The notes under the pieces are model-generated. The model was not told the origin of the DNA. It worked only from the letters and a program-made list of their open reading frames with translations, and did not search any database. DNA of 64,000 nucleotides from positions 124,001 through 188,000 of the forward strand of contig NZ_CP027295.1 in assembly GCF_005490785.1 (NCBI RefSeq), written 5' to 3'. The DNA comes from Brachybacterium sp. SGAir0954. Lineage in GTDB: Bacteria > Actinomycetota > Actinomycetes > Actinomycetales > Dermabacteraceae. Shown here piece after piece: positions 3,122 through 23,256 of this stretch. The position numbers were made by a program, and so were the translations under genes. Positions within the stretch are counted from its first letter, which is position 1. The number at the start of each line of letters is the position of its first letter.

Positions 3122-4393
3122 TCAGAGCCCCAGCTGATCCGCCGCGTAGTTCGCGTCGTCGACGGGGAAGCCCTCGTCCACGAGCTGGGCCACGAGCTCG
3201 TCGCGGGTCCAGCTCGGGTCCTCGTCGTAGTACTCGTGCGCGGCCGCGACGGCCTCCTCACGCCAGTCGATCTCGCCGCTGTCCTCGAGGTAGGTCAGCG
3301 CGGACTCTGCCTGGGAGACGGTGAAGCCGTCCTGCCGGAGGAAGTCGCGGAGCATGTCCCGCGAGAACGCCATGCCCTCGAGGTAGAAGTAAGCGGTCTC
3401 CAGCGCCTGCTCGTCCCAGTCGACCTCGCCCTTGCTCGCGAGGTGGTCGACGGCGTACTCGGCGTCGGCTGCCTTGGTCCCGGCGTACTCGAGCTCGCTG
3501 ATCAGGCCGCTGCGGGAGTAGTAGCCGTCGGCGAGGTAGTCGCGGGCGGCGGCGATCGCGGTGCGCTGCGCGGCCGTCGGCCCCGAGGCCTCCGCGACGC
3601 GCCGCACGCCGAGCGTGTCCTTGCGGTCGCCGTTCCAGTCACCGGCGAGAGTGGTGTCGGTGGCGCGGCCGTAGGCCTGGACGATCGCGGCGGCGCCGCC
3701 GCTGAGGCGGTTGGAGATGTAGTAGATGTTGCCGCGGCGCACCGCGAGCGTGTCCTTGGCGTCGGCGTTCCAGTCGCCCACGAGGACCTTGTCGCTCGCC
3801 TTGCCGTAGTTGATGACGGAGCTGGCCTTGCCGCCGGTGAGCGAGTTGGAGAAGTAGTACGTCTGCCCGCGGCGCACCGCGAGCGTGTCCTTCCCGTCGC
3901 CGTTCCAGTCGCCCACGAGGACGGTGTCCCCGGCGCGACCGTAGTTGAAGACGTTGCTGGCCTTGCCGCCGGAGAGGCTGTTGGTGACGTAGTACGTCTG
4001 CCCGCGGCGCACCGCGAGCGTGTCCTTCCCGTCGCCGTTCCAGTCCCCCACGAGCACGGTGTCGCTCGCCTTGCCGTAGTTGACGACGGTGCTCGCGCTG
4101 CCGCCGAGCGAGTTGGAGAAGTAGTACGTCTGCCCGCGCCGCACGGCGAGGGAGTCCTTGCCGTCGCCGTTCCAGTCGCCGGAGTAGACGCGGTCGCTCG
4201 TCTTGCCGTAGTTGAAGTCGTGGTTCGCCGTCGAGGACCACGAGTCGTTGAGGAAGTACGCCGAGCCCGAGCCACCCACCTCGCGGCCGTCCGCGAGCGC
4301 CGGCGCCTGCACCGCCATGCCCGTGCCGACCACCGCTGCGGTGGCGAGCAGCGCACCCCACGCCCGCACCGCTCCGCGCTTCACTGTGCCCAC
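3122..4393 (-). CDS. Secreted FG-GAP-like repeat protein with C-terminal Ltp (host-cell-surface-exposed) modules
   Basis: About 423 residues. The start at the GTG at 4393 is chosen because GGAG lies eight bases upstream there, exactly as in the paralogue ending at 5758; a GTG nine bases earlier is also open. Order: signal peptide (RAWGALLATAAVVGTGMAV, A-rich cleavage region); about five repeats of ~45 residues with GDWNGDGKDTLAVRRG and YYFSNSL; then three ~45-residue Ltp-type repeats (AARDYLADGYYSRSGLISEL, with KGEVDW/SGEIDW joints). The DWNGDGKD loops resemble calcium-binding FG-GAP/VCBS propeller blades. Ltp modules are known from surface and prophage proteins of Gram-positives. A cell-surface role is likely; the ligand is unknown. 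Confidence 0.82.
   Translation of the reverse strand: MGTVKRGAVRAWGALLATAAVVGTGMAVQAPALADGREVGGSGSAYFLNDSWSSTANHDFNYGKTSDRVYSGDWNGDGKDSLAVRRGQTYYFSNSLGGSASTVVNYGKASDTVLVGDWNGDGKDTLAVRRGQTYYVTNSLSGGKASNVFNYGRAGDTVLVGDWNGDGKDTLAVRRGQTYYFSNSLTGGKASSVINYGKASDKVLVGDWNADAKDTLAVRRGNIYYISNRLSGGAAAIVQAYGRATDTTLAGDWNGDRKDTLGVRRVAEASGPTAAQRTAIAAARDYLADGYYSRSGLISELEYAGTKAADAEYAVDHLASKGEVDWDEQALETAYFYLEGMAFSRDMLRDFLRQDGFTVSQAESALTYLEDSGEIDWREEAVAAAHEYYDEDPSWTRDELVAQLVDEGFPVDDANYAADQLGL
3600..4219 (-). repeat. Tandem FG-GAP-like repeats, first copy of the scaffold
   Basis: Five in-gene repeats with a period of about 135 bases; each encodes NYGK/NYGR, GDWNGDGKD, LAVRRG and YY.(S/T)N.L. Unit n here matches unit n of the neighbouring paralogue better than its own neighbours, so the array was duplicated whole rather than expanded independently. 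Confidence 0.8.
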
Positions 4394-4472
4394 TGCTGAC
4401 ACTCCGATCTGGCCGGCGCTACGCCGGTCCGCTCCGCGCCGGCTCCAGTGCCGACGTTCCAGGCGAAGCGTA
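4394..4472 (-). promoter_or_regulatory. Promoter and leader hairpin of the Ltp-repeat gene
   Basis: On the minus strand a TACGCT -10 (4467-4472) is followed by the conserved string TTCGCCTGGAACG, then a leader containing the perfect stem CCGGCG/CGCCGG (4413-4418 with 4422-4427), then GGAG and the GTG start. The same order is seen upstream of the gene ending at 5758. Confidence 0.5.
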
Positions 4473-4604
4473 CGAGGAGGAGCGAGTCAGGCGAGTCCGG
4501 AATGGGCGATTGCGGAGCACGGTTCGGTAACGGCGAATCGCGAGCTGACCAGCAGGTCCCTGGAGGATGACGTCCGACCCGACGGTCGGCGCCGCGCGGG
4601 GAGG

Positions 4605-4638
4605 GCTGAGGCGCCCGGCGTCAGCCGGCCGCCTCAGC
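4605..4638 (-). terminator. Strong hairpin after the sunset-domain gene
   Basis: Outer arms GCTGAGGCG/CGCCTCAGC (4605-4613 with 4630-4638) continue into a CCGGC/GCCGG stem with a 4-nt loop, giving about 14 paired bases and one mismatch. It sits about 50 bases past the stop at 4691. Confidence 0.65.
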
Positions 4639-4690
4639 GCGGATCATCTCCGCAGCCCCGAGAGCATCACTTCCCCGGGGGGCACGCGCC

Positions 4691-5758
4691 TCAGCGCTTC
4701 GAGGCGCGGTAGCCCGCGGCCTTCGCCGCCGACTCCGTGGAGAAACACTTCTCCGGGGTGGTGCGGGCGTAGAACGCGCCGCTGGGCACGTGGTAGATCT
4801 TCTCGCCCGAGCTGCTGTTGTTGCCCTTGATCGGCGCCGACGAGGGGCAGTTCTTGCCCGACGGCTTCGTGCTGGTCGGCTTGCTCGGCGTCGGACTCGG
4901 CTTGCTCGGCGCCGGCTTGCTGGGGGCCGGCTTGCTGGGGGCCGGGGTGCTCGCCGCAGCGCCGCGGCGCACGCCGAGCGTGTCCTTGCGGTCACCGTTC
5001 CAGTCGCCCACGAGGGTCGTGTCCGAGGTGCGGCCGTAGGCCTGGACGATCGACGCGGAGCCGCCGGAGAGCTTGTTGGAGATGTAGTAGACGTTGCCGC
5101 GGCGCACCGCGAGCGTGTCCTTGCGGTCGGCGTTCCAGTCGCCCACGAGGACCTTGTCGCTCGCCTTGCCGTAGTTGATGACGGAGCTGGCCTTGCCGCC
5201 GGTGAGCGAGTTGGAGAAGTAGTAGGTCTGCCCGCGGCGCACGGCGAGGGTGTCCTTGCCGTCGCCGTCCCAGTCGCCGACCAGGACTGTGTCCGTCGCC
5301 CGGCCGTAGTTCAGGACAGTGCTCGCGCTGCCGCCGGCGAGCTTGTTCGAGATGTAGTACGTCTGCCCGCGCCGCACGGCGAGGGTGTCCTTGCCGTCGC
5401 CGTCCCAGTCGCCGACGAGCACGGTGTCCGTCGACTTCCCGTAGTTCACGACGGTGCTCGCGCTGCCGCCCAGGGAATTGGCGAAGTAATAGGTGCTGCC
5501 GCGGCGCACGGCGAGGGAGTCCTTGCCGTCGCCGTTCCAGTCGCCGGTGTAGACGCGGTCACTCGTCTTGCCGTAGTTGAACTCATGGTTCGCCGTCGAG
5601 GACCACGAGTCGTTGAGGTAGTACTGCGAGCCCGAGCCCCCCACCTCGCGGCCTTCGGCGAGGGCCGGCGCCTGCGCCGCCATACCCGCTCCGACGACCA
5701 CGGCGATCGCGAGCATCGCACCCCATGCCCGCATCGCTCCGCGCTTCACATCGACCAC
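4691..5758 (-). CDS. Secreted FG-GAP-like repeat protein with C-terminal sunset domain
   Basis: 355 residues, paralogue of the gene at 3122-4393. Signal peptide (RAWGAMLAIAVVVGAGM), five FG-GAP-like repeats to about residue 265, a proline-rich linker with repeated APSKP units, and a C-terminal module of about 50 residues: CPSSAPIKGN, KIYHVPSGAFYARTTPEKCF, ESAAKAAGYRASKR. This last pattern matches the sunset domain found at the C-termini of many bacterial extracellular proteins. GTG start with GGAG eight bases upstream. The scaffold is nearly the same as in the neighbour, while the C-terminal module is different. Probably exported and wall- or surface-associated; no enzymatic motif is visible. 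Confidence 0.82.
   Translation of the reverse strand: MVDVKRGAMRAWGAMLAIAVVVGAGMAAQAPALAEGREVGGSGSQYYLNDSWSSTANHEFNYGKTSDRVYTGDWNGDGKDSLAVRRGSTYYFANSLGGSASTVVNYGKSTDTVLVGDWDGDGKDTLAVRRGQTYYISNKLAGGSASTVLNYGRATDTVLVGDWDGDGKDTLAVRRGQTYYFSNSLTGGKASSVINYGKASDKVLVGDWNADRKDTLAVRRGNVYYISNKLSGGSASIVQAYGRTSDTTLVGDWNGDRKDTLGVRRGAAASTPAPSKPAPSKPAPSKPSPTPSKPTSTKPSGKNCPSSAPIKGNNSSSGEKIYHVPSGAFYARTTPEKCFSTESAAKAAGYRASKR
4965..5584 (-). repeat. Tandem FG-GAP-like repeats, second copy of the scaffold
   Basis: Five repeats in the same order as the copy at 3600-4219. Two of the five carry GDWDGDGKD in place of GDWNGDGKD. The fourth unit in both copies has the degenerate GDWNAD loop, a position-specific change that supports duplication of the complete array. 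Confidence 0.8.
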
Positions 5759-5859
5759 CGTTGACGCTCCGTTCTGGCCGGCTTTCCGCCGGTCCGCTCA
5801 GCGCCGACACTCTTGCCAGCGTTTCAGGCGAAGCGTAAGAGACGGGGCAGACCTCTCAA
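5759..5859 (-). promoter_or_regulatory. Promoter and leader hairpin of the sunset-domain gene
   Basis: Minus strand: -35 TTGAGA (5854-5859), 16-nt spacer, -10 TACGCT (5832-5837), then TTCGCCTGAAACG, a CCGGC/GCCGG leader stem (5778-5782 with 5788-5792) and GGAG eight bases before GTG. It parallels the region upstream of the paralogue. Confidence 0.55.
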
Positions 5860-5955
5860 GACCGGATCAGGCGGGCGTAAAGAACGATTCGATAACGGCG
5901 GACCACGGCGCGATACCTCGGTCCCGTCACCCATCTGCTCCGACATCCTCGTCGC

Positions 5956-6618
5956 TCATGCCGACTCAGCCCCTTTGGCCAGCTCCCACAGGACGATCCC
6001 CAGCTCGTAGACCATGACGTCCGACCCCCGAGGCTCCTCCGCGAACGCCGCCTCGATCAGATGTCGAGTACTCACCGAGGACGATACGACCGCACGCCTG
6101 GCGAAGGCTTCAGGAGCAGGGCCTGGCATATATGCGGAGCCGCCGATCAGGATCTCAACGATCTCGGCGACCCGCGCGTCGCCATGCTCTCCGCACGCGA
6201 TACGCGTAGCGAGCTCCCCAGGAGCAAGAGCTTCGGCATCGGCCCGGGAGCGGAGGACGGGTCCTGTGCGCGCGAGATCTCGGGCGATGCGCTGCGTTCG
6301 GTCGGCGAGGCCACGTTCTCGCACAGCATCCACCACGCGCTCGTCCAGATCTGCTGCTTCGATTTCCGCGAACGTCTCGAGATCATCCGCCAGCCGCGGG
6401 TTCCATTTCACGACATTGGAGGCGACACCAGGGGCTTCAAGCTGATCTCGGCCATCCCCTCTAGGGGTGTCGACGAACAGCGTCGCCACGAGGTGCACAG
6501 CGCCGAGCCCGTCGCGCAGAATCTCGCCGTGGCGCAACGCGAAGTACTGCTCGGGGATCGTCGCCACGTCACGGAGGAACAGCTCCACGGTCGCGTCTCC
6601 ACTCCCGCCCAGCGCCAC
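5956..6618 (-). CDS. Hypothetical protein
   Basis: Up to 220 residues from a GTG at 6618; an in-frame GTG about ten codons later (VELFLRD) is an alternative. I do not recognise the family. It has no signal peptide or transmembrane segment. The N-terminal part is mixed alpha/beta, the middle (LADDLETFAEIEAADLDERVVDAVRE) is acidic and helical, and the C-terminus has YELGIVLWELAKG. Overlapping open frames on the plus strand look like shadows because their composition is unlike protein. It is divergent from the ABC importer operon, with about 200 bases between. Moderate confidence that it is coding; function unknown. Confidence 0.5.
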   Translation of the reverse strand: MALGGSGDATVELFLRDVATIPEQYFALRHGEILRDGLGAVHLVATLFVDTPRGDGRDQLEAPGVASNVVKWNPRLADDLETFAEIEAADLDERVVDAVRERGLADRTQRIARDLARTGPVLRSRADAEALAPGELATRIACGEHGDARVAEIVEILIGGSAYMPGPAPEAFARRAVVSSSVSTRHLIEAAFAEEPRGSDVMVYELGIVLWELAKGAESA

Positions 6619-6739
6619 AGATCATGTGACACCTACCCGCGCATCAGTCCCTGATCATCCGATGCACGGCAGAAGGCATCATCCACAGCTGTCACCCTTC
6701 TCAGTCCTGTGAACTAGTAACAGATCTGAAACATCAAGA

Positions 6740-6756
6740 GTGTGACTCTGTAACAC
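6740..6756. promoter_or_regulatory. Possible operator upstream of the BMP importer operon
   Basis: The 17-base string fits the inverted repeat GTGTNAC-NNN-GTNACAC. It lies in the divergent intergenic region 64 bases before the first permease. The operon's own DeoR protein would be the natural candidate to bind it. Inference from symmetry and position only. Confidence 0.3.
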
Positions 6757-6819
6757 CCGTCCTCCAAGCTCGACGTACGGCCGGATCCCCGACCGTCGAG
6801 CGTGACGAGAGGACGAGCG

Positions 6820-7938
6820 ATGCAGGAACGGGTCGAGCGGACGTTGCTCCGCGGCGGGCTCCCCGTCGGCGCGGTTCTGGCGGCGTTGATCGTGGGCGGC
6901 GCCCTGGTCTCGGCGCTCGGGGTCTCCCCGTGGGACGCGGCGACGACAGTCGCGACGGCCGGATTCGCCTGCGACCCGCGGTACTGCAATCTCGGCGGGA
7001 CCCTGGCCCTGGGCGCCCCGATCATGTTCTGCGCCCTCGGCGCTGTGGTGAACCTGCGCAGCGGTCTCTTCAGCATCGGCCAGGAGGGCCAGTACGCGCT
7101 CGGCGGCCTGGCCGCCGCCGTCGTCGGCTCCGCGGCCTCCGCGCCGACGGGCATCCACCCCGCACTGTGCCTCCTCGCCGCCGCGGCTGTGGGCGCCGCG
7201 TGGGGCGTGGTGCCCGCGATCCTCAAGCTGTTCCTCGGCGTGAACGAGCTGATCATCTCGATCATCCTCAACACGATGGCGGGCCTGCTGCTCAACTACC
7301 TGGTGAACTACCCGCTTCGCGCCGAGGCCTCGACGGTGGGTTACACGAGGACGATCGCGGACACCGCCAAGCTTCCCGTCTTCGACCCCTCCACCAAATT
7401 CGGCCTCGCCTTCGTCCTCGCGGTGATCGCCTGCATCGGCGTGTGGTTCTACCTGTCCCGCACGACGTTCGGCTACGAGCAGCGGATGAGTGGCGAGGCC
7501 ACCGCCTTCGCCCGGTACGCAGGGATGTCAGCCACGTCGGCCGTCCTTCGCGCCGGTCTGATCGGCGGGGCGCTCGCCGGGCTCGGCGGGGGCGTGCAGG
7601 TGCTCGGTGCGAACTACCGCGTGATCGAGGGCTTCAGCGACGGCACCGGGCTCACCGGCCTGACCGCCGCGATCCTCGGCGGCACCACGGCGATCGGCGC
7701 CGGCGTCGTCGGCATCCTGTACGCCGGCATCACGGTGGGCGCGGTGAACGGCCTGCAGATCATGCTCGGGGTCCCGCGTGAGATCGGGTCGACCGTCCTC
7801 GCCCTGATGATCGTGCTCGTCGCGATCCAGGCTCCCCTGCAGAAGCGCATCGAACGGGCTCGCGAGCGGCGACGCACGAACCGGCGTCTCGACGCCGGGA
7901 CCCGCCCCTCCACCGAGCAGGCGGAGGTGCACGCCTGA
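6820..7938 (+). CDS. ABC transporter permease, BMP/nucleoside type (first of two)
   Basis: 372 residues. The ATG at 6820 is preferred over the GTG at 6802 because AGAGGA lies at proper spacing before it. It carries about eight to ten hydrophobic segments and the signature block of the branched-chain/nucleoside permease family (NLRSGLFSIGQEGQY, GVNELIISIILNTMAGLLLNYL, GLTAAILGGTT). This fold partners BMP-type lipoproteins in nucleoside importers such as YufOPQ. It starts a run of eight closely spaced genes and shares one base with the next permease (TGATG). The C-terminal 40 residues are charged and cytosolic. Confidence 0.9.
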   Translation: MQERVERTLLRGGLPVGAVLAALIVGGALVSALGVSPWDAATTVATAGFACDPRYCNLGGTLALGAPIMFCALGAVVNLRSGLFSIGQEGQYALGGLAAAVVGSAASAPTGIHPALCLLAAAAVGAAWGVVPAILKLFLGVNELIISIILNTMAGLLLNYLVNYPLRAEASTVGYTRTIADTAKLPVFDPSTKFGLAFVLAVIACIGVWFYLSRTTFGYEQRMSGEATAFARYAGMSATSAVLRAGLIGGALAGLGGGVQVLGANYRVIEGFSDGTGLTGLTAAILGGTTAIGAGVVGILYAGITVGAVNGLQIMLGVPREIGSTVLALMIVLVAIQAPLQKRIERARERRRTNRRLDAGTRPSTEQAEVHA

Positions 7939-16159: not shown

Positions 16160-17437
16160 TCATCGCGCCCAGCTCGCGGCATAGCTCGGTGCCGAAGGTC
16201 GATCGATCCCTTGATCCGACCATGCCTTCTTCGCAGCACGCTTCAGCCCGTCGTTGCACTCCGGCGAACACATCCACCGTTCCCGGAACATCCAGTAGAC
16301 GTCCGGGCCGATCGCCCCCTCGCAGCGCAGACACTGGTCGCCGGCGCCCGGGTGTCCGGCCGGGCGACGCAGCGCCTGACGGAGCCACGTGGAGTAATTG
16401 AGATCTTCACCTGTGAGCGCCCTGGCTTGCTCGACGACATGCAGGGGCAACCACCCCGTCCTGCCCACGGCACGCTGCTCACGCGTCGCCGCTTCCAGCG
16501 CTTCTTGGCCGATGTCGAGCCGGTCGATCAGATCCTGTTCGGTCAGGATCTCGAGCGGCTGCCCCTTCTCGGCGAGGTCCATCGCCTTCTGCAGCTTGCG
16601 GCTGAACTCGGCGCCGGGTCTGAAGGTGCGAGGGTCGAGATCCCCGCTGACGAAGATGGTGGTCGCCTTTGTCACGCTCTTCTGCCAGGTGCCACCGTAG
16701 TGCTCAACCAGTGCATGGGCCTCGGCACGGGTGTGTAGAGACAGGGTGCCAGTGAAGACGACGCTCTCCCCCGCCAGCACGTCCGTCGCCGCCAGCGAGG
16801 AGAAGTCCCCAGCAGCCCGTGAACCGTCGCCGACAGGACGTGAGAGCGATCCTGGCCTCGTCGGGACCGAATGGATGCCCGATGGGTTAGCGAGTTCCGC
16901 GATCGAGTCGACCCCCGACCGGCCGGCGAGGGCGAGGAGGATCCGGGCGGCTTGGACTGCGTCGGCCTCGGCCTCGTGATGGGTGAGGTCCGGAAGATCC
17001 AGTGCGTTGGCGACGAAAGGCAAGGAGTACGAACCGAGCGTCAACAGTCGACGAGCGATCGGCAACGTGTCATACCAGACCGTGTCCGGGACCTCGAGGT
17101 CGAACGCGACGCTCGCCTTCCGGAACACCGAGCGATCGAAGGACGCATTGTGCGCGACGAACGGATCACCGCCGGCGAAGCTCAGCACTTCGGGGAGAAC
17201 CTTCGCCCAGGAAGGCGCACCGTCTACCTCCTTCGCGGTGATGCCGTGGATGGCCACGTTCCGAGGCGCGAAATGGTCCAGACCTTCAGGGGGCGCGATC
17301 AGCCACGAGGCGGTCTCAACGATGCCTCCATCGCGGATCTTCGCCAGCCCCACCGCGCAAGCGGATGCGTGAACCGAGTTCGCCGTCTCGAAGTCGATGG
17401 CGGTCGCGTTGAGGCCCTGCCCAGGGGCGATGTGCAT
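16160..17437 (-). CDS. DnaQ-like 3'-5' exonuclease with BRCT domain and C-terminal zinc-binding motif
   Basis: 425 residues, ATG at 17437. Exonuclease domain 10-190: ExoI AIDFETAN, ExoII VAHNASFDRSVF, ExoIII HHEAEADAVQAA, giving a complete DEDDh set. BRCT domain about 220-310 (VVFTGTLSLHTRAEAHALVE, GGTWQKSVTKATTIFV). C-terminal region has CLRCEGAIGPD and CSPECNDG, a CxxC/CxxxC pair suggesting a zinc knuckle. Exonuclease-BRCT fusions are common in Actinobacteria as repair-type proteins distinct from the polymerase III epsilon subunit; the zinc end is less usual. It is divergent from the MazG/GIY-YIG pair by 125 bases. Confidence 0.88.
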   Translation of the reverse strand: MHIAPGQGLNATAIDFETANSVHASACAVGLAKIRDGGIVETASWLIAPPEGLDHFAPRNVAIHGITAKEVDGAPSWAKVLPEVLSFAGGDPFVAHNASFDRSVFRKASVAFDLEVPDTVWYDTLPIARRLLTLGSYSLPFVANALDLPDLTHHEAEADAVQAARILLALAGRSGVDSIAELANPSGIHSVPTRPGSLSRPVGDGSRAAGDFSSLAATDVLAGESVVFTGTLSLHTRAEAHALVEHYGGTWQKSVTKATTIFVSGDLDPRTFRPGAEFSRKLQKAMDLAEKGQPLEILTEQDLIDRLDIGQEALEAATREQRAVGRTGWLPLHVVEQARALTGEDLNYSTWLRQALRRPAGHPGAGDQCLRCEGAIGPDVYWMFRERWMCSPECNDGLKRAAKKAWSDQGIDRPSAPSYAASWAR

Positions 17438-17550
17438 GGCCGGACGATACCGCCCACATGCGACATTCTGTTCTCGCGAGGTCGTTGGTGGACGGCGAAC
17501 GGCTCGAGCGATCGGCTTCGATCCTCAGCCCTGGCCATCCACACGATTGC

Positions 17551-17556
17551 TAGGTT
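17551..17556 (+). promoter_or_regulatory. -10 element of a probably leaderless MazG operon
   Basis: TAGGTT ends six bases before the ATG at 17563, and no ribosome-binding sequence lies between. This spacing puts the transcription start at or next to the start codon. Confidence 0.5.
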
Positions 17557-17562
17557 GAAGCC

Positions 17563-17883
17563 ATGACCGGCGAAGACCTGCTCGAGACCCTGCGATCCTT
17601 CATGGCCGAGCGCGACTGGGGCCAGTTCCACTCCCCGGAGAACCTCGCCAAGTCGATCTCCATCGAGGCCGCCGAGCTGCTCGAGTGCTACCAGTGGAAC
17701 GGCGACGCCGACCGCGACGAGGTGGCCGGGGAGCTCGCCGACGTGCTGACCTACGCACTCCTCCTCGCGGACAAGCTCGACCTCGACCCGGAGCAGATCG
17801 TCCGCGCGAAGCTCGAACGCACCGGGCAGAAGTACCCCGTCGAGAAGGCGAAGGGACGGAGCACGAAGTATGACCGCCTTTGA
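17563..17883 (+). CDS. MazG-like nucleotide pyrophosphohydrolase
   Basis: 106 residues, one complete all-alpha MazG/dCTPase-type domain: FHSPENLAKSISIEAAELLECYQW carries the first acidic set, EVAGELADVLTYALLLADKLDLD the second (ExxD), and the C-terminus ends KYPVEKAKGRSTKYDRL. These enzymes hydrolyse (d)NTPs or related nucleotides to monophosphate and pyrophosphate using magnesium held by the acidic residues. It overlaps the next gene by 14 bases and shares the probable leaderless promoter, so the two products are likely made together. Substrate unknown. Confidence 0.87.
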   Translation: MTGEDLLETLRSFMAERDWGQFHSPENLAKSISIEAAELLECYQWNGDADRDEVAGELADVLTYALLLADKLDLDPEQIVRAKLERTGQKYPVEKAKGRSTKYDRL

Positions 17884-19591
17884 GATCGAGGAGCTCCGCT
17901 TCACTCCGGAGTCGGTGGAGGAGACGAGGGGACGACTCCCCCGCTTCACCAATTGGCCCGTCGTCTACCTCATCGAGGACGGGCACGACATCTACGTCGG
18001 GGAGACCGGCAGTGCGGACCGCCGGATGCGGCAGCACCTCAAGTCGAAGCAGAAGGAGCACCTCAAGGAGGTGCGGATCGTCTTCGATGAGCGCTTCAAC
18101 GGCTCCGCCTGCCTGGATCTCGAGTCACTGCTGATCCGCCTGCTCGGCGGCGACGGCAAGTTCGACGTCCTGAACCGCAACGAGGGCATCACCAACCATG
18201 ACTACTTCCAGCGCAGCGAGTACAACGACACCTTCAAGGAGATCTTCGACGAGCTCCGCTCGCGCGGCTACTTCGAGCGGTCGATCCCCGAGATCGAGAA
18301 CTCGGACCTCTTCAAGCTCTCCCCGTACAAGGCGCTCAACACGGAGCAGGGCGTCGCCGTCCTCGACATCATGGAGGGCCTCGTCGAGGACCTCCGTCGT
18401 CCCGAGGTGCGCACGATCGCCGCGATCCAGGGTGATCCCGGCACCGGGAAGACGATCGTCGGCATCTACCTCATGAAGCTGATGCGGGACCTCTCCGTCT
18501 TCGACCCCACCGACGAGGTCGAGGGTGACTCGATGTTCTCCGACCTCTTCGTCGAGGGGAACCGCGAGCTGTTCCAGGGACTGCGGATCGGCCTCGTCGT
18601 CCCACAGAAGTCACTCCGCAAGTCCATCAGCAAGGTGTTCCGGAAGGTGCCCGCGCTGAACTCCACCCAGGTTCTCACCCCGTACGACGTCGCCGACGCG
18701 GAAGAGGACTTCGACGTCATCGTGGTTGACGAAGCCCACCGCCTCACCCAGCGCGGCGCCCAGGCCCACGGCACGCTCACCAAGCGGTACGGGGAGACGA
18801 CGCGCAGGCTCTTCGGGGTGGACGACCTCTCGATCAACCAGCTCGACTGGATCCGCAAGCGCTCGCGCCACACGATCCTTCTGCTCGACACTGCCCAGAG
18901 CGTCCGCCCGATCGACATCGAGCCCGAGGTGTTCGAGAAGGTCCTCGCCGAGACCCGCGAGCAGAAGCGGCTCTATCCGCTGGACACCCAGATGCGGGTG
19001 AAGGGCGGGAAGGAGTATCTCGAGTTCGCTCGCGCCCTGATCTCCGACGACCCACCCACGTCAATGCCTGACCTCGGCGACTACGAGTTCGAGCTGTTCG
19101 ACGACCTCGGCGCGATGCACCAGCGGATCCGGGAGCGCGACGCCGAGCACGGCCTCGCCCGGCTCGTCGCCGGCTACGCCTGGAAGTGGCGCAGCAAAGG
19201 CAAGAGCGGACTGCACGACATCGAGCTCGACGGCGTCGCCCTGGACTGGAACGTCTCCGACGTCGACTGGATCGCCTCGAAGACCTCCCTCGAGGAGGTC
19301 GGCTCGATCCACACCGTCCAGGGCTACGACCTCAACTACGCCGGCGTCATCATCGGCGGCGACCTCCGCATCGATCTCGACACCGGCAAGCTCGTCGCCG
19401 ACCGCAAGAACTACTTCGACGCCAAGGGCAAGGCCAACAACACCATGCGCGGCCGAACCACCTCCGACGAGGACCTGCTGCGCTACATCACCAACGTCTA
19501 CCGGGTGCTGCTGACGCGAGGGATGCGGGGGACGTATGTGTACGTCGCGGATCCATCATTGCGGACTCGAATCCGCTCCATTCTAATTTAG
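17870..19591 (+). CDS. GIY-YIG nuclease fused to DUF2075 superfamily-1 helicase
   Basis: 573 residues, start overlapping the MazG gene. Residues 25-110: GIY-YIG-type fold (VVYLIEDGHDIYVGETGSA, RRMRQHL, then E in the CLDLESLLIRLLGG helix). From about residue 185: Walker A GDPGTGKTIVG, Walker B VIVVDEAHRL, LLDTAQSVRPID, QMRVKGGKEYLEFA and the DUF2075 C-terminal part SIHTVQGYDLNYAGVIIGGDL and YRVLLTRGMRGTYVYV. DUF2075 proteins are SF1 helicase-like ATPases. Nuclease plus helicase in one chain, coupled to MazG, suggests an invader-DNA or damaged-DNA processing role; this is inference. The last codons and the bases after them are AT-richer than the surroundings. Confidence 0.9.
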   Translation: MTAFEIEELRFTPESVEETRGRLPRFTNWPVVYLIEDGHDIYVGETGSADRRMRQHLKSKQKEHLKEVRIVFDERFNGSACLDLESLLIRLLGGDGKFDVLNRNEGITNHDYFQRSEYNDTFKEIFDELRSRGYFERSIPEIENSDLFKLSPYKALNTEQGVAVLDIMEGLVEDLRRPEVRTIAAIQGDPGTGKTIVGIYLMKLMRDLSVFDPTDEVEGDSMFSDLFVEGNRELFQGLRIGLVVPQKSLRKSISKVFRKVPALNSTQVLTPYDVADAEEDFDVIVVDEAHRLTQRGAQAHGTLTKRYGETTRRLFGVDDLSINQLDWIRKRSRHTILLLDTAQSVRPIDIEPEVFEKVLAETREQKRLYPLDTQMRVKGGKEYLEFARALISDDPPTSMPDLGDYEFELFDDLGAMHQRIRERDAEHGLARLVAGYAWKWRSKGKSGLHDIELDGVALDWNVSDVDWIASKTSLEEVGSIHTVQGYDLNYAGVIIGGDLRIDLDTGKLVADRKNYFDAKGKANNTMRGRTTSDEDLLRYITNVYRVLLTRGMRGTYVYVADPSLRTRIRSILI

Positions 19592-19681
19592 ACCGAGGGT
19601 ACAAACAGACTCCTCCTTTGAATAGCTGAACACCTATTAAGTCGAGTCCAGATCGTATTGCCCACCCGCGGAGGAGCCCCC
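19592..19681. other. AT-rich junction between the two pyrophosphohydrolase/helicase pairs
   Basis: About 90 bases that are clearly poorer in GC than the flanks, with no coding potential and no convincing terminator. An 8-bp inverted repeat (19563-19570 with 19642-19649) flanks most of it. It marks a boundary between two modules and probably contains the promoter of the second. Confidence 0.35.
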
Positions 19682-20116
19682 GTGAACGCCACCCCTATCG
19701 TGCGCGTCGTCGGCGCCGTCATCGTGCGCGAAAACATGGTCTTCGCGGCCCGCCGCAACCCCGAGCGGAGCGCTGGCGGGCTGTGGGAGTTCCCCGGCGG
19801 CAAGGTGGAACCGGGAGAGACGCCGGAACAGGCGCTCGCGCGCGAACTCGACGAGGAGCTGTCCGTGACGGTCGTGGTCGGCCCTATCGTGGATCGCAGC
19901 GTGGCTTCGGTGGGCGAGAAGACCATCGAGCTCTCCTGCTACCTCGCAACACTCGCAGGAGCCGAACCCGCCGCGAGTACTGACCACGACGCGATGCAAT
20001 GGATTCCCCTCACGGAGTTGGACCAATGGGACTGGGCGCCCGGCGACGTTCCCATCATCCGCGGGCTGCCGCAGAGGATCCGCGACCTCCGCGATCACGA
20101 GAGTGAGGCGCAGTGA
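19682..20116 (+). CDS. Nudix (MutT-type) nucleotide pyrophosphohydrolase
   Basis: 144 residues from GTG at 19682, chosen because GGAGGAG lies just before it; a TTG 24 bases earlier is also open. Opens VVGAVIVRENMVFAARRNPE, then GGLWEFPGGKVE and the complete Nudix box (G, five residues, E, seven residues, REL.EEL) within about residues 34-56. Ends WIPLTELDQWDW. The pattern matches (deoxy)nucleoside triphosphate pyrophosphohydrolases of the MutT/NudG type. The stop overlaps the GTG start of the helicase gene (GTGA), giving tight coupling to the PLD/DUF3427 protein. Confidence 0.9.
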   Translation: MNATPIVRVVGAVIVRENMVFAARRNPERSAGGLWEFPGGKVEPGETPEQALARELDEELSVTVVVGPIVDRSVASVGEKTIELSCYLATLAGAEPAASTDHDAMQWIPLTELDQWDWAPGDVPIIRGLPQRIRDLRDHESEAQ

Positions 20117-23100
20117 TCCCAGCCGACCGACTCGACCCAGGCCTGTACGAACTCCTCGTCACCACCGGCCTCGCCGATCTCATCACGACCGCCGAGGCCA
20201 ATGGCTTCACCGCGTCCACGACGGACGTGGACGCGGCCGAGGTCACCCACGTCCTCACGCAGCACATCAGCACCGTCGTCGAACAAGCACTCCGCGAGGC
20301 TTCGCCGGAGCAACGCATTGACCTTGCCAACTCGGTGCTGAACGCGCTGCCACTCGCGGGGCAGCAGGGACAGGTCTCGCCCGGGCCGCGTCTGCTGACG
20401 GAAGTGTCCCGGCCAGGCGCAGTTCCGCTGGATCGGCCGGCGACGCGTCTCAGCGACGTGGCGCTCATGACCAACGCCCGCAATGACCCGCAGCTCGGCT
20501 CGGAGCTGCGCCGGGAGATGGCAAGCGCCGATCGCATCGACTTGCTGTGTGCCTTTGTGCAGTGGAGCGGGATCCGGGTGCTCGAAGCTTCCCTCAAGGC
20601 TGCTGCCGACCGCGGCGTGCCGATCCGAGTCCTCACCACTACGTACATCGGGGCGACGGACCGCCGCGCGCTGGATTACTTTGTGCGCGCGCTGGGCTCC
20701 GAGGTGCGGATCAACTACGACGCGCAGTCCACGCACCTCCATGCGAAGGCGTGGATGTTTCACCGCCACAGCGGATACACCACGGCCTACGTCGGCAGTT
20801 CGAACATGAGCCGTGCCGCGCTCGTGGACGGCCTCGAGTGGAACGTGAAGCTCTCGCGCCAGGTGACCTCGACACTGCTCGACAAGTTCGCGTCCACCTT
20901 TGACACCTATTGGGACAGTAGAGAGTTCGCCTCTTACGATCCCGACACGGACGCCGAGTACCTCGACGCGCTCCTCGCCAAGAACGGAGGCCGCGGCCGC
21001 AGCACGCTGTTCGGTATCAGCAGCCTCGATGTGCGCCCCTACCCGCATCAACAGGAGATCCTCGACGATCTCCAGTCCGAGCGCGAGACTCGTGGGCGGC
21101 ATAAGAACCTCGTCATCGCTGCGACGGGGACCGGGAAGACAGTCGTCGCTGCCCTGGACTACAAGCGGTTACGTCCGTCCGCGCACCAGCAGCCGCGGCT
21201 CCTGTTCCTCGCGCACCGCAAGGAGATCCTCGAGCAGTCACTGCGCACGTACCGTGACGTCCTCAAGGAAGAGGCGTTCGGCGAGCTCATGGTGGATGGG
21301 CATCGCCCACTGAAGGGGACACACGTCTTCGCGTCGATCCAGTCAATGGCGCGTACGCAGGAGCTCGAGCGATGGGACCCTGCCCACTTCGACATCGTCG
21401 TGATCGACGAGTTCCACCATGCCGATGCGAACTCCTACCGGCGCGTGCTGGACCACTTCACCCCGGCGGAGCTGCTCGGCCTCACTGCGACACCCGAACG
21501 GGCCGACGGCGTGAACGTCACCCAGGCATTCTTTGACGGCCGGGCCGCGAGCGAGCTCCGACTCTGGGACGCCCTCGAAGCCGATCTTCTGGTGCCCTTC
21601 CACTACTTCGGTATCGGCGACGGTGTGGACCTCCGCTCCCTGCGCTTCTCCCGCGGCCGCTATGACACCGGCCAACTGGCGCGGGCCCTCACCGGAAATG
21701 ACGCACGCGCCGCGAAGATCCTCGCGGCTGTCGAGGACAAGGTCACCGATCCACCGAGCATGCGCGCGTTGGGGTTCTGCGTCAGCGTGGAGCATGCGCG
21801 CTACATGGCACGGGTGTTCAACGACGCGGGCCTCCCGGCGCTCGCCCTCTCCGGGGAATCACACCCTGAGGAACGACGACGTGGTCTGGAAAGCCTGCGC
21901 AACGGCGACGTGACCTGCCTGTTCGCAGTCGACCTGTTCAACGAAGGCCTCGACATCCCCATGATCGACACGGTCCTCATGCTGCGACCCACGCAGTCCT
22001 CCACGATCTTCCTGCAGCAACTGGGCCGCGGCCTGCGCCGCGCGGAGGGCAAGTCCGTGCTCACCGTGCTCGACTTTGTGGGCCTACAGAACGAGGCCTT
22101 CCGCTTTGATCTGAAGTACCGCGCGCTGACCGGACTCTCCCGGAACCAGCTCCAACGCAACATCGACGAGGGATTCCCCTTCCTTCCGCCCGGCTGCCAG
22201 ATCGTCTTTGATGCGGTCGCCCAGGACATCGTGCTGAGCAACGTGAAGAAGCAGCTCAAGCTCTCCACCAAGGACCTCGTCGCGGATGTGCGCCAGCATC
22301 TGCCCGAGGATGTCGCCCCGGAGGACTACAACCTCGGCACGTATCTCGAGACCGCTGAGCGTTCCCTCGCAGATGTCTACGCCCCGCCAACGCGTACGTT
22401 CGGTGGGAGCCAGCGGGCATCGTCGTGGTCGGCGCTCGTGGACTGGGCCTTCCCCAACGCTGAGGTGCAGGGGGAACTGTCCGTCGAGGATGACGTCTTG
22501 CTCCGGCGCGTCAGGACGCTCACACACGTGGACGACGCCGACCGGATCGCCGCCTACCGTTCGCTCCTCGACGCGCCCGAGCTTCCCGCTGACGTCGACA
22601 CGAACCTGTATGCCGCGATGCTCTATTTCTCGATCTGGCCGACCGGCACACGGGGCGTACGCGCCGGCTTGGAAGAGCTGCGCTCACGACCGCCCGTCGT
22701 GCGGGAACTCCTGAACCTGCTGGAGTACAAAGCCCAAGTGGGCCGTGTGCGCCCAGAGCCCCTCGGTGGCCGCGCCTCGGCAACGCCGCTGCGCTCCCAC
22801 GCCACCTACTCGCGCGAAGAGCTACTTGCTGGGCTGGGCCTCGGAACGCGAGACACCGGGACGCCGGGCGCCATCCGCGAGGGCGTGAAGTGGCTCCCCA
22901 CCCTCCAGGCGGACGCCCTCCTCGTCACGCTCAAGAAGTCAGAGACCGACTACTCCCCCACCACGATGTATCGCGACTACGCGATCAACCAGGACCACTT
23001 CCACTGGGAATCGCAAAGCACCACCGGCACCCACAGCGCCACCGGTCAGCGCTACATCAATCACGCCTCCCGTGGCTCCGACGTCATCCTCTTCGTGCGC

Positions 23101-23256
23101 CGTGCGAAGACCGGTGACCTCGGCACGGAGCCGTACACGTGCCTCGGAACGCTCCAGTTCCAGCAAGCGACAGGGTCGAAGCCGATGCAGATCGTCTGGA
23201 AGCTCGATCGGGAGATGCCGATGGATCTGTTCTTGGAGGCAAAGGCGGCCGTGTAG
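20113..23256 (+). CDS. PLD nuclease-DEAD/DEAH helicase-DUF3427 protein
   Basis: 1047 residues. Residues 150-290: phospholipase D-type nuclease with HLHAKAWMF (HxK) near 206 and GSSNMSRAAL after it. Residues 320-660: SF2 helicase with ATGTGKTVV near 337, VVIDEFHHAD near 432, TATPERADG near 458 and QLGRGLRRAEG near 636. About 700-1047: DUF3427-type C-terminus (ALVDWAFPNAEVQGEL, GVKWLPTLQADALLVTLKKSE, TGTHSATGQRYINH). The GTG start overlaps the Nudix stop. Such proteins occur with restriction or defence genes, and the C-terminus has been suggested to read DNA. Codon use is a little less GC-extreme than in neighbouring operons, which is compatible with transfer. Confidence 0.93.
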   Translation: MIPADRLDPGLYELLVTTGLADLITTAEANGFTASTTDVDAAEVTHVLTQHISTVVEQALREASPEQRIDLANSVLNALPLAGQQGQVSPGPRLLTEVSRPGAVPLDRPATRLSDVALMTNARNDPQLGSELRREMASADRIDLLCAFVQWSGIRVLEASLKAAADRGVPIRVLTTTYIGATDRRALDYFVRALGSEVRINYDAQSTHLHAKAWMFHRHSGYTTAYVGSSNMSRAALVDGLEWNVKLSRQVTSTLLDKFASTFDTYWDSREFASYDPDTDAEYLDALLAKNGGRGRSTLFGISSLDVRPYPHQQEILDDLQSERETRGRHKNLVIAATGTGKTVVAALDYKRLRPSAHQQPRLLFLAHRKEILEQSLRTYRDVLKEEAFGELMVDGHRPLKGTHVFASIQSMARTQELERWDPAHFDIVVIDEFHHADANSYRRVLDHFTPAELLGLTATPERADGVNVTQAFFDGRAASELRLWDALEADLLVPFHYFGIGDGVDLRSLRFSRGRYDTGQLARALTGNDARAAKILAAVEDKVTDPPSMRALGFCVSVEHARYMARVFNDAGLPALALSGESHPEERRRGLESLRNGDVTCLFAVDLFNEGLDIPMIDTVLMLRPTQSSTIFLQQLGRGLRRAEGKSVLTVLDFVGLQNEAFRFDLKYRALTGLSRNQLQRNIDEGFPFLPPGCQIVFDAVAQDIVLSNVKKQLKLSTKDLVADVRQHLPEDVAPEDYNLGTYLETAERSLADVYAPPTRTFGGSQRASSWSALVDWAFPNAEVQGELSVEDDVLLRRVRTLTHVDDADRIAAYRSLLDAPELPADVDTNLYAAMLYFSIWPTGTRGVRAGLEELRSRPPVVRELLNLLEYKAQVGRVRPEPLGGRASATPLRSHATYSREELLAGLGLGTRDTGTPGAIREGVKWLPTLQADALLVTLKKSETDYSPTTMYRDYAINQDHFHWESQSTTGTHSATGQRYINHASRGSDVILFVRRAKTGDLGTEPYTCLGTLQFQQATGSKPMQIVWKLDREMPMDLFLEAKAAV

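Follow-up and report, generated by a model that had tools for sequence, protein, structure and literature searches.

A SauUSI-type restriction gene with a Nudix partner next to a MazG and nuclease-helicase pair in Brachybacterium, and a possible link to modified cytosine nucleotides

Introduction

SauUSI of Staphylococcus aureus is the best solved relative of a restriction gene that we studied in a 64,000-nucleotide stretch of the Brachybacterium sp. SGAir0954 genome (contig NZ_CP027295.1, positions 124,001 to 188,000; the source genome is one contig of 3.41 Mb). We refer to this whole stretch as the window and give positions within it. SauUSI uses ATP in cleaving DNA that carries 5-methylcytosine (5mC) or 5-hydroxymethylcytosine (5hmC) (PMC3874153, PMC7913695), and it is described as an important obstacle to gene transfer in S. 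aureus (PMC7913695). Two further groups of enzymes act on the corresponding nucleotides. The Nudix hydrolase Orf135/NudG and the MazG-like RS21-C6/DCTPP1 have been named as specific 5-methyl-dCTP hydrolases (PMC10742078), the NudG structure 2RRK is listed as a 5-methyl-dCTP pyrophosphatase (PMC5389931), and NudG has a reported kcat/Km of 1,300 on 5-methyl-dCTP versus 47 on CTP, in that paper's units (PMC5158307). In the window, relatives of all three are found in four consecutive open reading frames (ORFs) on the (+) strand, in the order MazG-like, GIY-YIG/SF1 helicase, Nudix and PLD/SF2/DUF3427. The first two form what we call module 1, and the last two form module 2, of which the PLD/SF2/DUF3427 gene is designated gene 4. 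A first-pass annotation made from the letters alone had placed these two gene pairs correctly, with a 14-base overlap in module 1 and a GTGA overlap in module 2, and had proposed them as a candidate for an undescribed system. A wholly undescribed system is not supported by our analysis, as gene 4 is by sequence and fold a SauUSI-type enzyme; the enzyme type is known, and what seems to be new is its partner, which has apparently been overlooked. We put at roughly 55% the probability that a SauUSI-like Type IV enzyme and a Nudix hydrolase of 5-modified dCTP together make up module 2 as a restriction system, and that module 1 applies the same logic with unrelated folds.

Results

Gene 4 is a SauUSI-type restriction enzyme by sequence and fold

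Gene 4 (20113–23256, +; 1047 aa) is assigned by sequence comparison and structure prediction to the SauUSI-type, modified-cytosine-dependent (Type IV) restriction enzymes. The PADLOC mREase_IV model matches residues 95–1042 with 1047 bits, and the best solved relative is SauUSI (PDB 7clg, 1e-86). Like SauUSI, gene 4 carries a PLD nuclease (20464–20982), an SF2 motor ATPase (21034–22104) and a coupler followed by a C-terminal SRA reader (22105–23253) in a single chain, and shares with it the HxK and GSSN motifs, here H210, K212 and G228–N231. Among 52 rows of class A, the close relatives of gene 4 (class B being the distant ones), the histidine is kept in 51, the lysine in 50 and GSSN in all. 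The predicted reader, annotated as DUF3427, is by profile and modelled fold an SRA-type domain of the kind that reads 5mC and 5hmC. A profile of 50 C-terminal regions matched 7clg residues 569–952 at 7e-57 and had no other match at E up to 0.01, and a search with the predicted fold of this region (pLDDT 91.2) gave only the pair of SauUSI chains with E of 0.001 or less. Weaker fold matches, with E from 0.006 to 0.1, were to the 5mC readers SUVH6 and KRYPTONITE and to the modification-dependent enzymes AbaSI, LpnPI and PvuRts1I. The modelled 5mC pocket of SauUSI includes Asp858 and Trp868 (PMC7913695), and these align with D955 and W965 of gene 4, each of which is kept in 51 of the 52 class A rows.

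Gene 4 nonetheless differs from S. aureus SauUSI. The two share ~33% identity over 540 residues, gene 4 falls into PADLOC class PDLC03659 and not PDLC03658, and the acidic residue of the H(X)K(X)4E motif is replaced by His217 in the window. This position is H or R in 45/52 class A rows and E in 7/20 class B rows, hence the acidic residue is not universal in the wider family. C5-methyltransferases (PF00145) were present in 19/74 order genomes carrying a SauUSI-like gene versus 127/223 others (P=3.7e-6; the 74 are 78 carriers minus four with small fragments, and with all 78 kept the counts are 21/78 versus 125/219, P=5.7e-6), and none was found in the window's genome. Such rarity would be expected for a 5mC-dependent enzyme, although the test ignores phylogeny.

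A Nudix gene accompanies many SauUSI-like genes

The Nudix gene of module 2 (19682–20116, +) begins at GTG 19682, with a longer ORF possible from an upstream TTG at 19658, and matches the PADLOC candidate PDC-S07 with 142.9 bits (PDC-S07, like PDC-S41 and PDC-S48 below, is a candidate model without a description). To place this gene in context we used a sample of 297 genomes of the host's order, 78 of which match gene 4 at 1e-30. The 71 neighbourhoods fetched leave out the window itself and six partial-match genomes (G011, G012, G042, G048, G159 and G163). A Nudix gene directly adjoins the SauUSI-like gene in 33/71, comprising 20/20 class B and 13/51 class A neighbourhoods; one locus, L066, was scored as Nudix-less although its contig stops inside the SauUSI-like gene. 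When named genomes were scanned with a class B protein as query, 562 relatives came up, and the best 80 of these, from Actinobacteria and Bacillota, were examined (two, L158 and L163, are perhaps also in the order sample). Nudix was present in 77 of these 80 loci, directly upstream in 62 and elsewhere in the locus in 15; it was absent in two, and one locus left no room for it. Twelve of the 15 lie within 90 bases downstream of the SauUSI-like gene, four on the same and eight on the opposite strand. That gene order has changed while adjacency was kept points to a functional relationship.

The association reaches Bacteroidota (Hymenobacter canadensis, L264) and S. aureus itself, where a gene annotated as '(deoxy)nucleoside triphosphate pyrophosphohydrolase' lies directly upstream of SauUSI in record L249. 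Its translation agrees with 5x1x at every one of the 128 residues compared, and because of this identity the neighbour of SauUSI appears to have a solved structure already, namely 5x1x, deposited under the generic name of mutator MutT protein. The Nudix and SauUSI-like proteins show correlated divergence (r=0.63 over 31 rows, permutation P=2e-4), for which common descent alone would suffice, and the Nudix label requires eight changes on the SauUSI tree. Among Nudix-less SauUSI loci we looked for a shared replacement gene (34/38 examined) and rejected one, as the largest upstream family occurs in three loci and consists entirely of helicases. In the portions of the literature available to our search, no paper joined SauUSI with a Nudix neighbour or described a Nudix partner, and the co-mention encountered was unrelated.

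The Nudix protein is likely NudG-like

A profile of the linked Nudix proteins scored 181 bits against 5x1x, 126 against NudG (2rrk), 124 against 3gwy, 117 against MutT2 (5zrc) and 77 against MutT (1mut). E. coli NudG and MutT2 are thus the second and fourth best solved relatives and are closer to the profile than MutT. We take mycobacterial MutT2 to be a dCTP-type Nudix enzyme. The Nudix box residues G40, E46, R54, E55, E58 and E59 are present in 34/34 rows, Ser61 takes the place of the last G of the box consensus in the window, and the invariant Asp122 of the linked proteins aligns with the Asp of the APADIP stretch of NudG. From these comparisons a NudG-like assignment is likely; it is not certain, because the NCBIfam models for NudG and MutT score the window protein at 93 and 80 bits, both below cut-off. 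Unlike NudG and MutT2, the window Nudix sits in an operon with a restriction enzyme, and its substrate is a predicted one.

Related Nudix genes lie beside other nucleases

PDC-S07 matched 57/297 order genomes at E up to 1e-30, in 64 listed places, of which 29 have no intact SauUSI-like gene adjoining. We fetched 18 of these 29, including a second copy in the window's genome, and scanned 20 neighbouring proteins from 13 of the 18 loci with Pfam (L302–L306 were left out). In L300 the Nudix gene is followed by a NaeI-type nuclease and a C5-methyltransferase, and just past the methyltransferase lies a SauUSI-like fragment (residues 960–1046); judged from these sequences, this locus (4035–7931) looks like one in which the nuclease was swapped and the Nudix retained. 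L299 has a similar run of Nudix, one unscanned ORF, NaeI-type nuclease and C5-methyltransferase. An HNH_2 nuclease lies next to the Nudix gene in L292, L295 and L297. The L292 protein resembles VcaM4I (6yex, 2e-13), reported to restrict 5hmC and 5mC DNA, mainly over the HNH half, and for the L295 protein no solved structure matched at E up to 0.01. In L301 the Nudix has as its neighbour an AbiEi-like protein whose REase domain scores sub-threshold. In L298 (4989–6434) the PDC-S07 Nudix gene and that of a homologue of CMP 5-hydroxymethylase (5b6d, 2e-43) are divergently oriented neighbours, and the predicted function of the homologue is consistent with 5-substituted cytidine nucleotides as Nudix substrates. 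As a weak lead, proteins beside the Nudix in L291 and L294 may be SRA-PD-(D/E)XK fusions; the putative SRA part matches ScoMcrA (5zmn) at E=0.0096, and the nuclease part is our reading from motifs. Separately, a plasmid island (L258:3690–9734) encodes a NudG-like Nudix, a DUF262 protein that we take to be GmrSD-like, a restriction endonuclease and a DUF2075 helicase.

Module 1 pairs a DCTPP1-type MazG with a GIY-YIG helicase

Module 1 consists of a MazG-like nucleotide pyrophosphohydrolase of DCTPP1/RS21-C6 type (17563–17883, +; 106 aa, Pfam MazG-like 64.9 bits) and a fusion of a GIY-YIG nuclease with a Schlafen-group-3-type SF1 helicase of the DUF2075 family (17870–19591, +; 573 aa, Pfam SLFN-g3_helicase 234.7 bits). 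The helicase occurs in 29/297 order genomes, and MazG accompanies it in 29/29 fetched order loci: upstream on the same strand in 26, downstream in two and on the opposite strand in one. Twenty-three of the 26 upstream MazG genes overlap the helicase gene by exactly 14 bases, as in the window, so that the pairing noted in the first-pass annotation is more than chance. In a phylum sample of 346 genomes the helicase was found in nine, three of which belong to the order sample too, and MazG adjoins it in 8/9 (not in L242).

The best solved relative of the window MazG is 4qgp, followed by human and mouse dCTP pyrophosphatase. Like DCTPP1, it belongs to the MazG-like family and has the ERDW-QFH and QW motifs and paired Glu and Glu/Asp metal residues. 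Eight residues of DCTPP1 are reported to line its 5-methyl-dCTP/dCTP pocket (PMC4491611). We compared these positions (His38, Trp47, Glu63, Glu66, Trp73, Glu95, Asp98 and Tyr102) and found that seven of the eight are kept in 29 or 30 of 30 MazG rows. The window protein differs from DCTPP1 in being shorter, in lacking the base-contacting His38 and in the overlap of its gene with a nuclease-helicase gene.

The nuclease domain of the helicase protein (about residues 1–105; 17870–18184, +) matches Pfam GIY-YIG with 20.2 bits, just under the cut-off of 22.6, and its catalytic positions Y33, Y42, G44, R52 and E85 are invariant in 29 rows, as are the helicase motifs. Foldseek aligned the model (pLDDT 89.4) with Upf1, SLFN11, Dna2 and a RecBCD chain at TM ~0.3. 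Schlafen proteins have a Schlafen nuclease core besides the helicase; Pfam found no such core here, just the SLFN group 3 helicase domain and GIY-YIG. Neither Pfam nor fold comparison found a modified-base reader in this protein, and its carriers do not avoid C5-methyltransferases. For both reasons plain 5mC is an unlikely DNA target of module 1. No model of a described anti-phage system matched module 1: MazG had no PADLOC hit, and the helicase best matched PDC-S41 at 55 bits. In the available portions of the literature searched, we found no description of a MazG gene paired with a GIY-YIG/DUF2075/Schlafen helicase.

Phages were considered as the main carriers of module 1 and rejected, as viral contigs gave one distant relative and then none, with 4/50,697 phage records. 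Larger Schlafen-group-3 helicases lie near SauUSI-like genes in L073, L074, L080, L091, L098 and L168, five of these six loci being Nudix-less; Pfam found no GIY-YIG domain in the two tested, L073 and L168.

The two modules are separate cassettes that have come together repeatedly

The modules are separated by a gap of 90 bases (19592–19681; 54% GC), one fewer than first annotated, in which a scan for sigma-70-like promoters, weak in a high-GC organism, found none. Pfam domains across the locus are MazG-like; SLFN-g3_helicase with sub-threshold GIY-YIG; NUDIX; and PLDc_2, ResIII, Helicase_C and DUF3427. The four genes have 64–68% GC versus 71% for the window. The widest DNA shared with congeners carrying module 1 (L121–L126, blastn) is 17542–19564, and the widest shared with congeners that have module 2 elsewhere (L061–L065 and L070, blastn) is 19703–23255, with no flanking match of at least 80 bases. 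Because shared DNA comprises one or the other of these stretches, we conclude that the modules are separate cassettes. They have come to sit together repeatedly. Decayed copies occur in L143, L138 and L070 (a helicase gene with an in-frame stop, a MazG gene in two pieces and a split SauUSI-like gene), which suggests that both cassettes turn over.

The separate cassette boundaries speak for the possibility that the adjacency is accidental, i.e. that two unrelated mobile cassettes entered the same variable region and only module 2 serves defence. Both modules occur in 9/297 order genomes, a co-occurrence not above chance (P=0.50), and a homologue of the C69 peptidase gene, which is 4.6 kb away in the window, is found at distances of 17, 37 and 44 kb from module 1 in three congeners, with module 2 not there. 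The recurrence of module 1 near the same C69 peptidase gene in these congeners means that this region may be a hotspot; in 18 congeners compared for flanking genes, relatives of the downstream C69 peptidase were found in 11, and the upstream kinase had only distant ones. The surroundings of the MazG pair show no enrichment in defence genes, which also favours an accidental encounter.

Against it stands the spacing of the modules where they do co-occur. In three of the nine two-module order genomes (the window, L081 and L096) they lie within 100 bases and in a fourth, L100, within ~7 kb; of the remaining five, one has the modules ~535 kb apart and four have them on different contigs. Outside the host's order, Cytobacillus praedii (L192) has MazG, helicase, Nudix and SauUSI in the same gene order as the window, a mobilizable Lactiplantibacillus plantarum plasmid (L248) carries them in another gene order, Nudix, SauUSI, MazG and helicase in one run, and an unverified contig, MT836409.1, has SauUSI, MazG and helicase. 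We regard accidental adjacency as somewhat unlikely. Among the best 80 named class B loci, examined with flanks of up to 4 kb, L192 was the only one with a GIY-YIG-type helicase; Schlafen-type helicases are present in L168, L212 and L221, and in the two tested (L168 and L212) Pfam finds no GIY-YIG. The proposal that the two pairs form one system thus holds in part: each pair is conserved in its own lineage and the pairs stand side by side again in unrelated bacteria, but most sampled genomes with one pair are without the other, and the DNA shared with congeners stops at each pair.

Downstream of the four-gene run of the L. plantarum plasmid (L248:352–5282) are a DUF2357/PDDEXK_7 protein and two proteins to which Pfam assigns nothing, an arrangement suggestive of an McrBC-like locus. 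The window also has a divergent DEDDh exonuclease with a BRCT domain (16160–17437, −); it has a partial PADLOC match to PDC-S48 (89.6 bits) and a GC content below the window mean. We ruled it out as a partner, with homologues in 2/97 loci at 30–32% identity.

Discussion

The core of our interpretation is that two unrelated folds, with one reported substrate between them, are each tied to a nuclease-motor protein, and from these sequence relationships we infer a shared logic. The SauUSI-like nuclease-motor would destroy incoming DNA containing 5mC or 5hmC, and the Nudix enzyme would cleave 5-methyl-dCTP, and probably 5-hydroxymethyl-dCTP, to the monophosphate. Host polymerases would thus have no salvaged modified cytosine to insert into the cell's own DNA, where it would create a target, and a phage would be prevented from accumulating its modified precursor. 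With modified cytosine blocked at its source, whether salvage of degraded foreign DNA or phage-made precursors, the cytosine mark in DNA would stay a reliable signal for the nuclease. Beside SauUSI this would mean host self-protection together with precursor starvation of the phage, and beside a NaeI-type nuclease the hydrolase would stop the masking of invader DNA. In module 1 a DCTPP1-like MazG would act with a GIY-YIG nuclease-helicase whose DNA target is probably not plain 5mC.

Several observations weigh against this interpretation. No Nudix gene adjoins the SauUSI-like gene in 38/72 rows of the order, all class A; the best 80 named loci, being the top matches to a class B protein, are a favourable set, and in a less selected set, SauUSI-like loci on plasmids, Nudix adjoins in 3/11 only (L248, L249 and L264). 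SauUSI by itself is active in restriction both in vitro and when cloned in E. coli (PMC3874153), so the Nudix protein is dispensable for cutting; this fits an auxiliary role of the Nudix, and E. coli NudG could stand in for it in the clone. A second NudG-like Nudix (135.8 bits) is encoded in the window's genome, and the reported substrates of NudG also include CTP, dCTP and 2-OH-dATP (PMC5389931, PMC5158307). Four of the other Nudix loci lend no direct support: the neighbours are guaA and a pseudouridine synthase in L289 and L290, a DUF6119 gene with a C5-methyltransferase ~2.7 kb off in L293, and an AbiH gene ~1 kb off in L296. For module 1, 29/30 paired MazG rows have Leu, Ile, Val or Ala at the position of DCTPP1 His38 (Leu10 in the window) and one has a gap, MazG adjoins distant plasmid relatives of the helicase in 2/9 loci only (L248, and L259 with MazG downstream), and C5-methyltransferases are found in 13/29 helicase carriers versus 133/268 others (P=0.70). 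Nor does the MazG pair keep the company of known defence genes: 11 PADLOC families were matched, each by one of 105 neighbours (of 127; 21/26 loci), no more than in control stretches, where 19 families were matched among 105 proteins (of 151; 17/20 stretches), 17 by one protein and two by two. A defence role of module 1 accordingly rests on its partners only.

An alternative use of the same hydrolases is nucleotide starvation, in which they would drain dCTP or CTP upon infection to halt phage replication, with the nuclease-helicases cutting DNA. Defences based on dCTP deaminase and dGTPase work in this way. NudG and DCTPP1 are reported to hydrolyse dCTP or CTP as well, and MazG is among predicted, unvalidated defence domains (PMC13092281). 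We consider starvation improbable, as the nearest characterised relatives are reported to prefer 5-methyl-dCTP, partners that read modification or are linked to C5-methylation are not predicted by it, and no activation switch is visible. General clean-up, with the hydrolases removing oxidised or damaged nucleotides from nuclease-shredded DNA and cytosine modification being incidental, is quite improbable: MutT and MTH1 belong to the Nudix family, loss of NudG increases mutation in E. coli (PMC5158307) and the NCBIfam margin between NudG and MutT is narrow, but the linked-Nudix profile favours NudG and MutT2 over MutT, the genome holds another NudG-like copy, and Nudix linkage is often with restriction genes. 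The broad nucleotide depletion and DNA-damage roles put forward in the first-pass annotation found no evidence in support, and control of modified cytosine fits better than either, given that dCTP and 5-methyl-dCTP are substrates of the characterised enzymes most closely related to the two hydrolases.

A wider and more tentative extension of the preferred reading is that such hydrolases form a layer of 'mark fidelity', in which 5-modified-dCTP hydrolases of the Nudix and MazG types travel with enzymes that are directed or blocked by cytosine modification (SauUSI of Type IV, and NaeI-like and HNH enzymes of Type II). As tentatively, hydrolases of unrelated folds would have been recruited to this role at least twice, and marks would come only from methyltransferases or the invader, never from salvage. 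If so, SauUSI of S. aureus would make up half of a system of this kind. If the Nudix enzyme does remove 5-methyl- or 5-hydroxymethyl-dCTP, restriction would act on the precursor pool besides DNA, which would explain how a cell that kills 5mC DNA escapes self-poisoning through salvage of degraded foreign DNA, and would open a second front against phages that make modified precursors. Two unexplained gene pairs thereby gain a substrate hypothesis.

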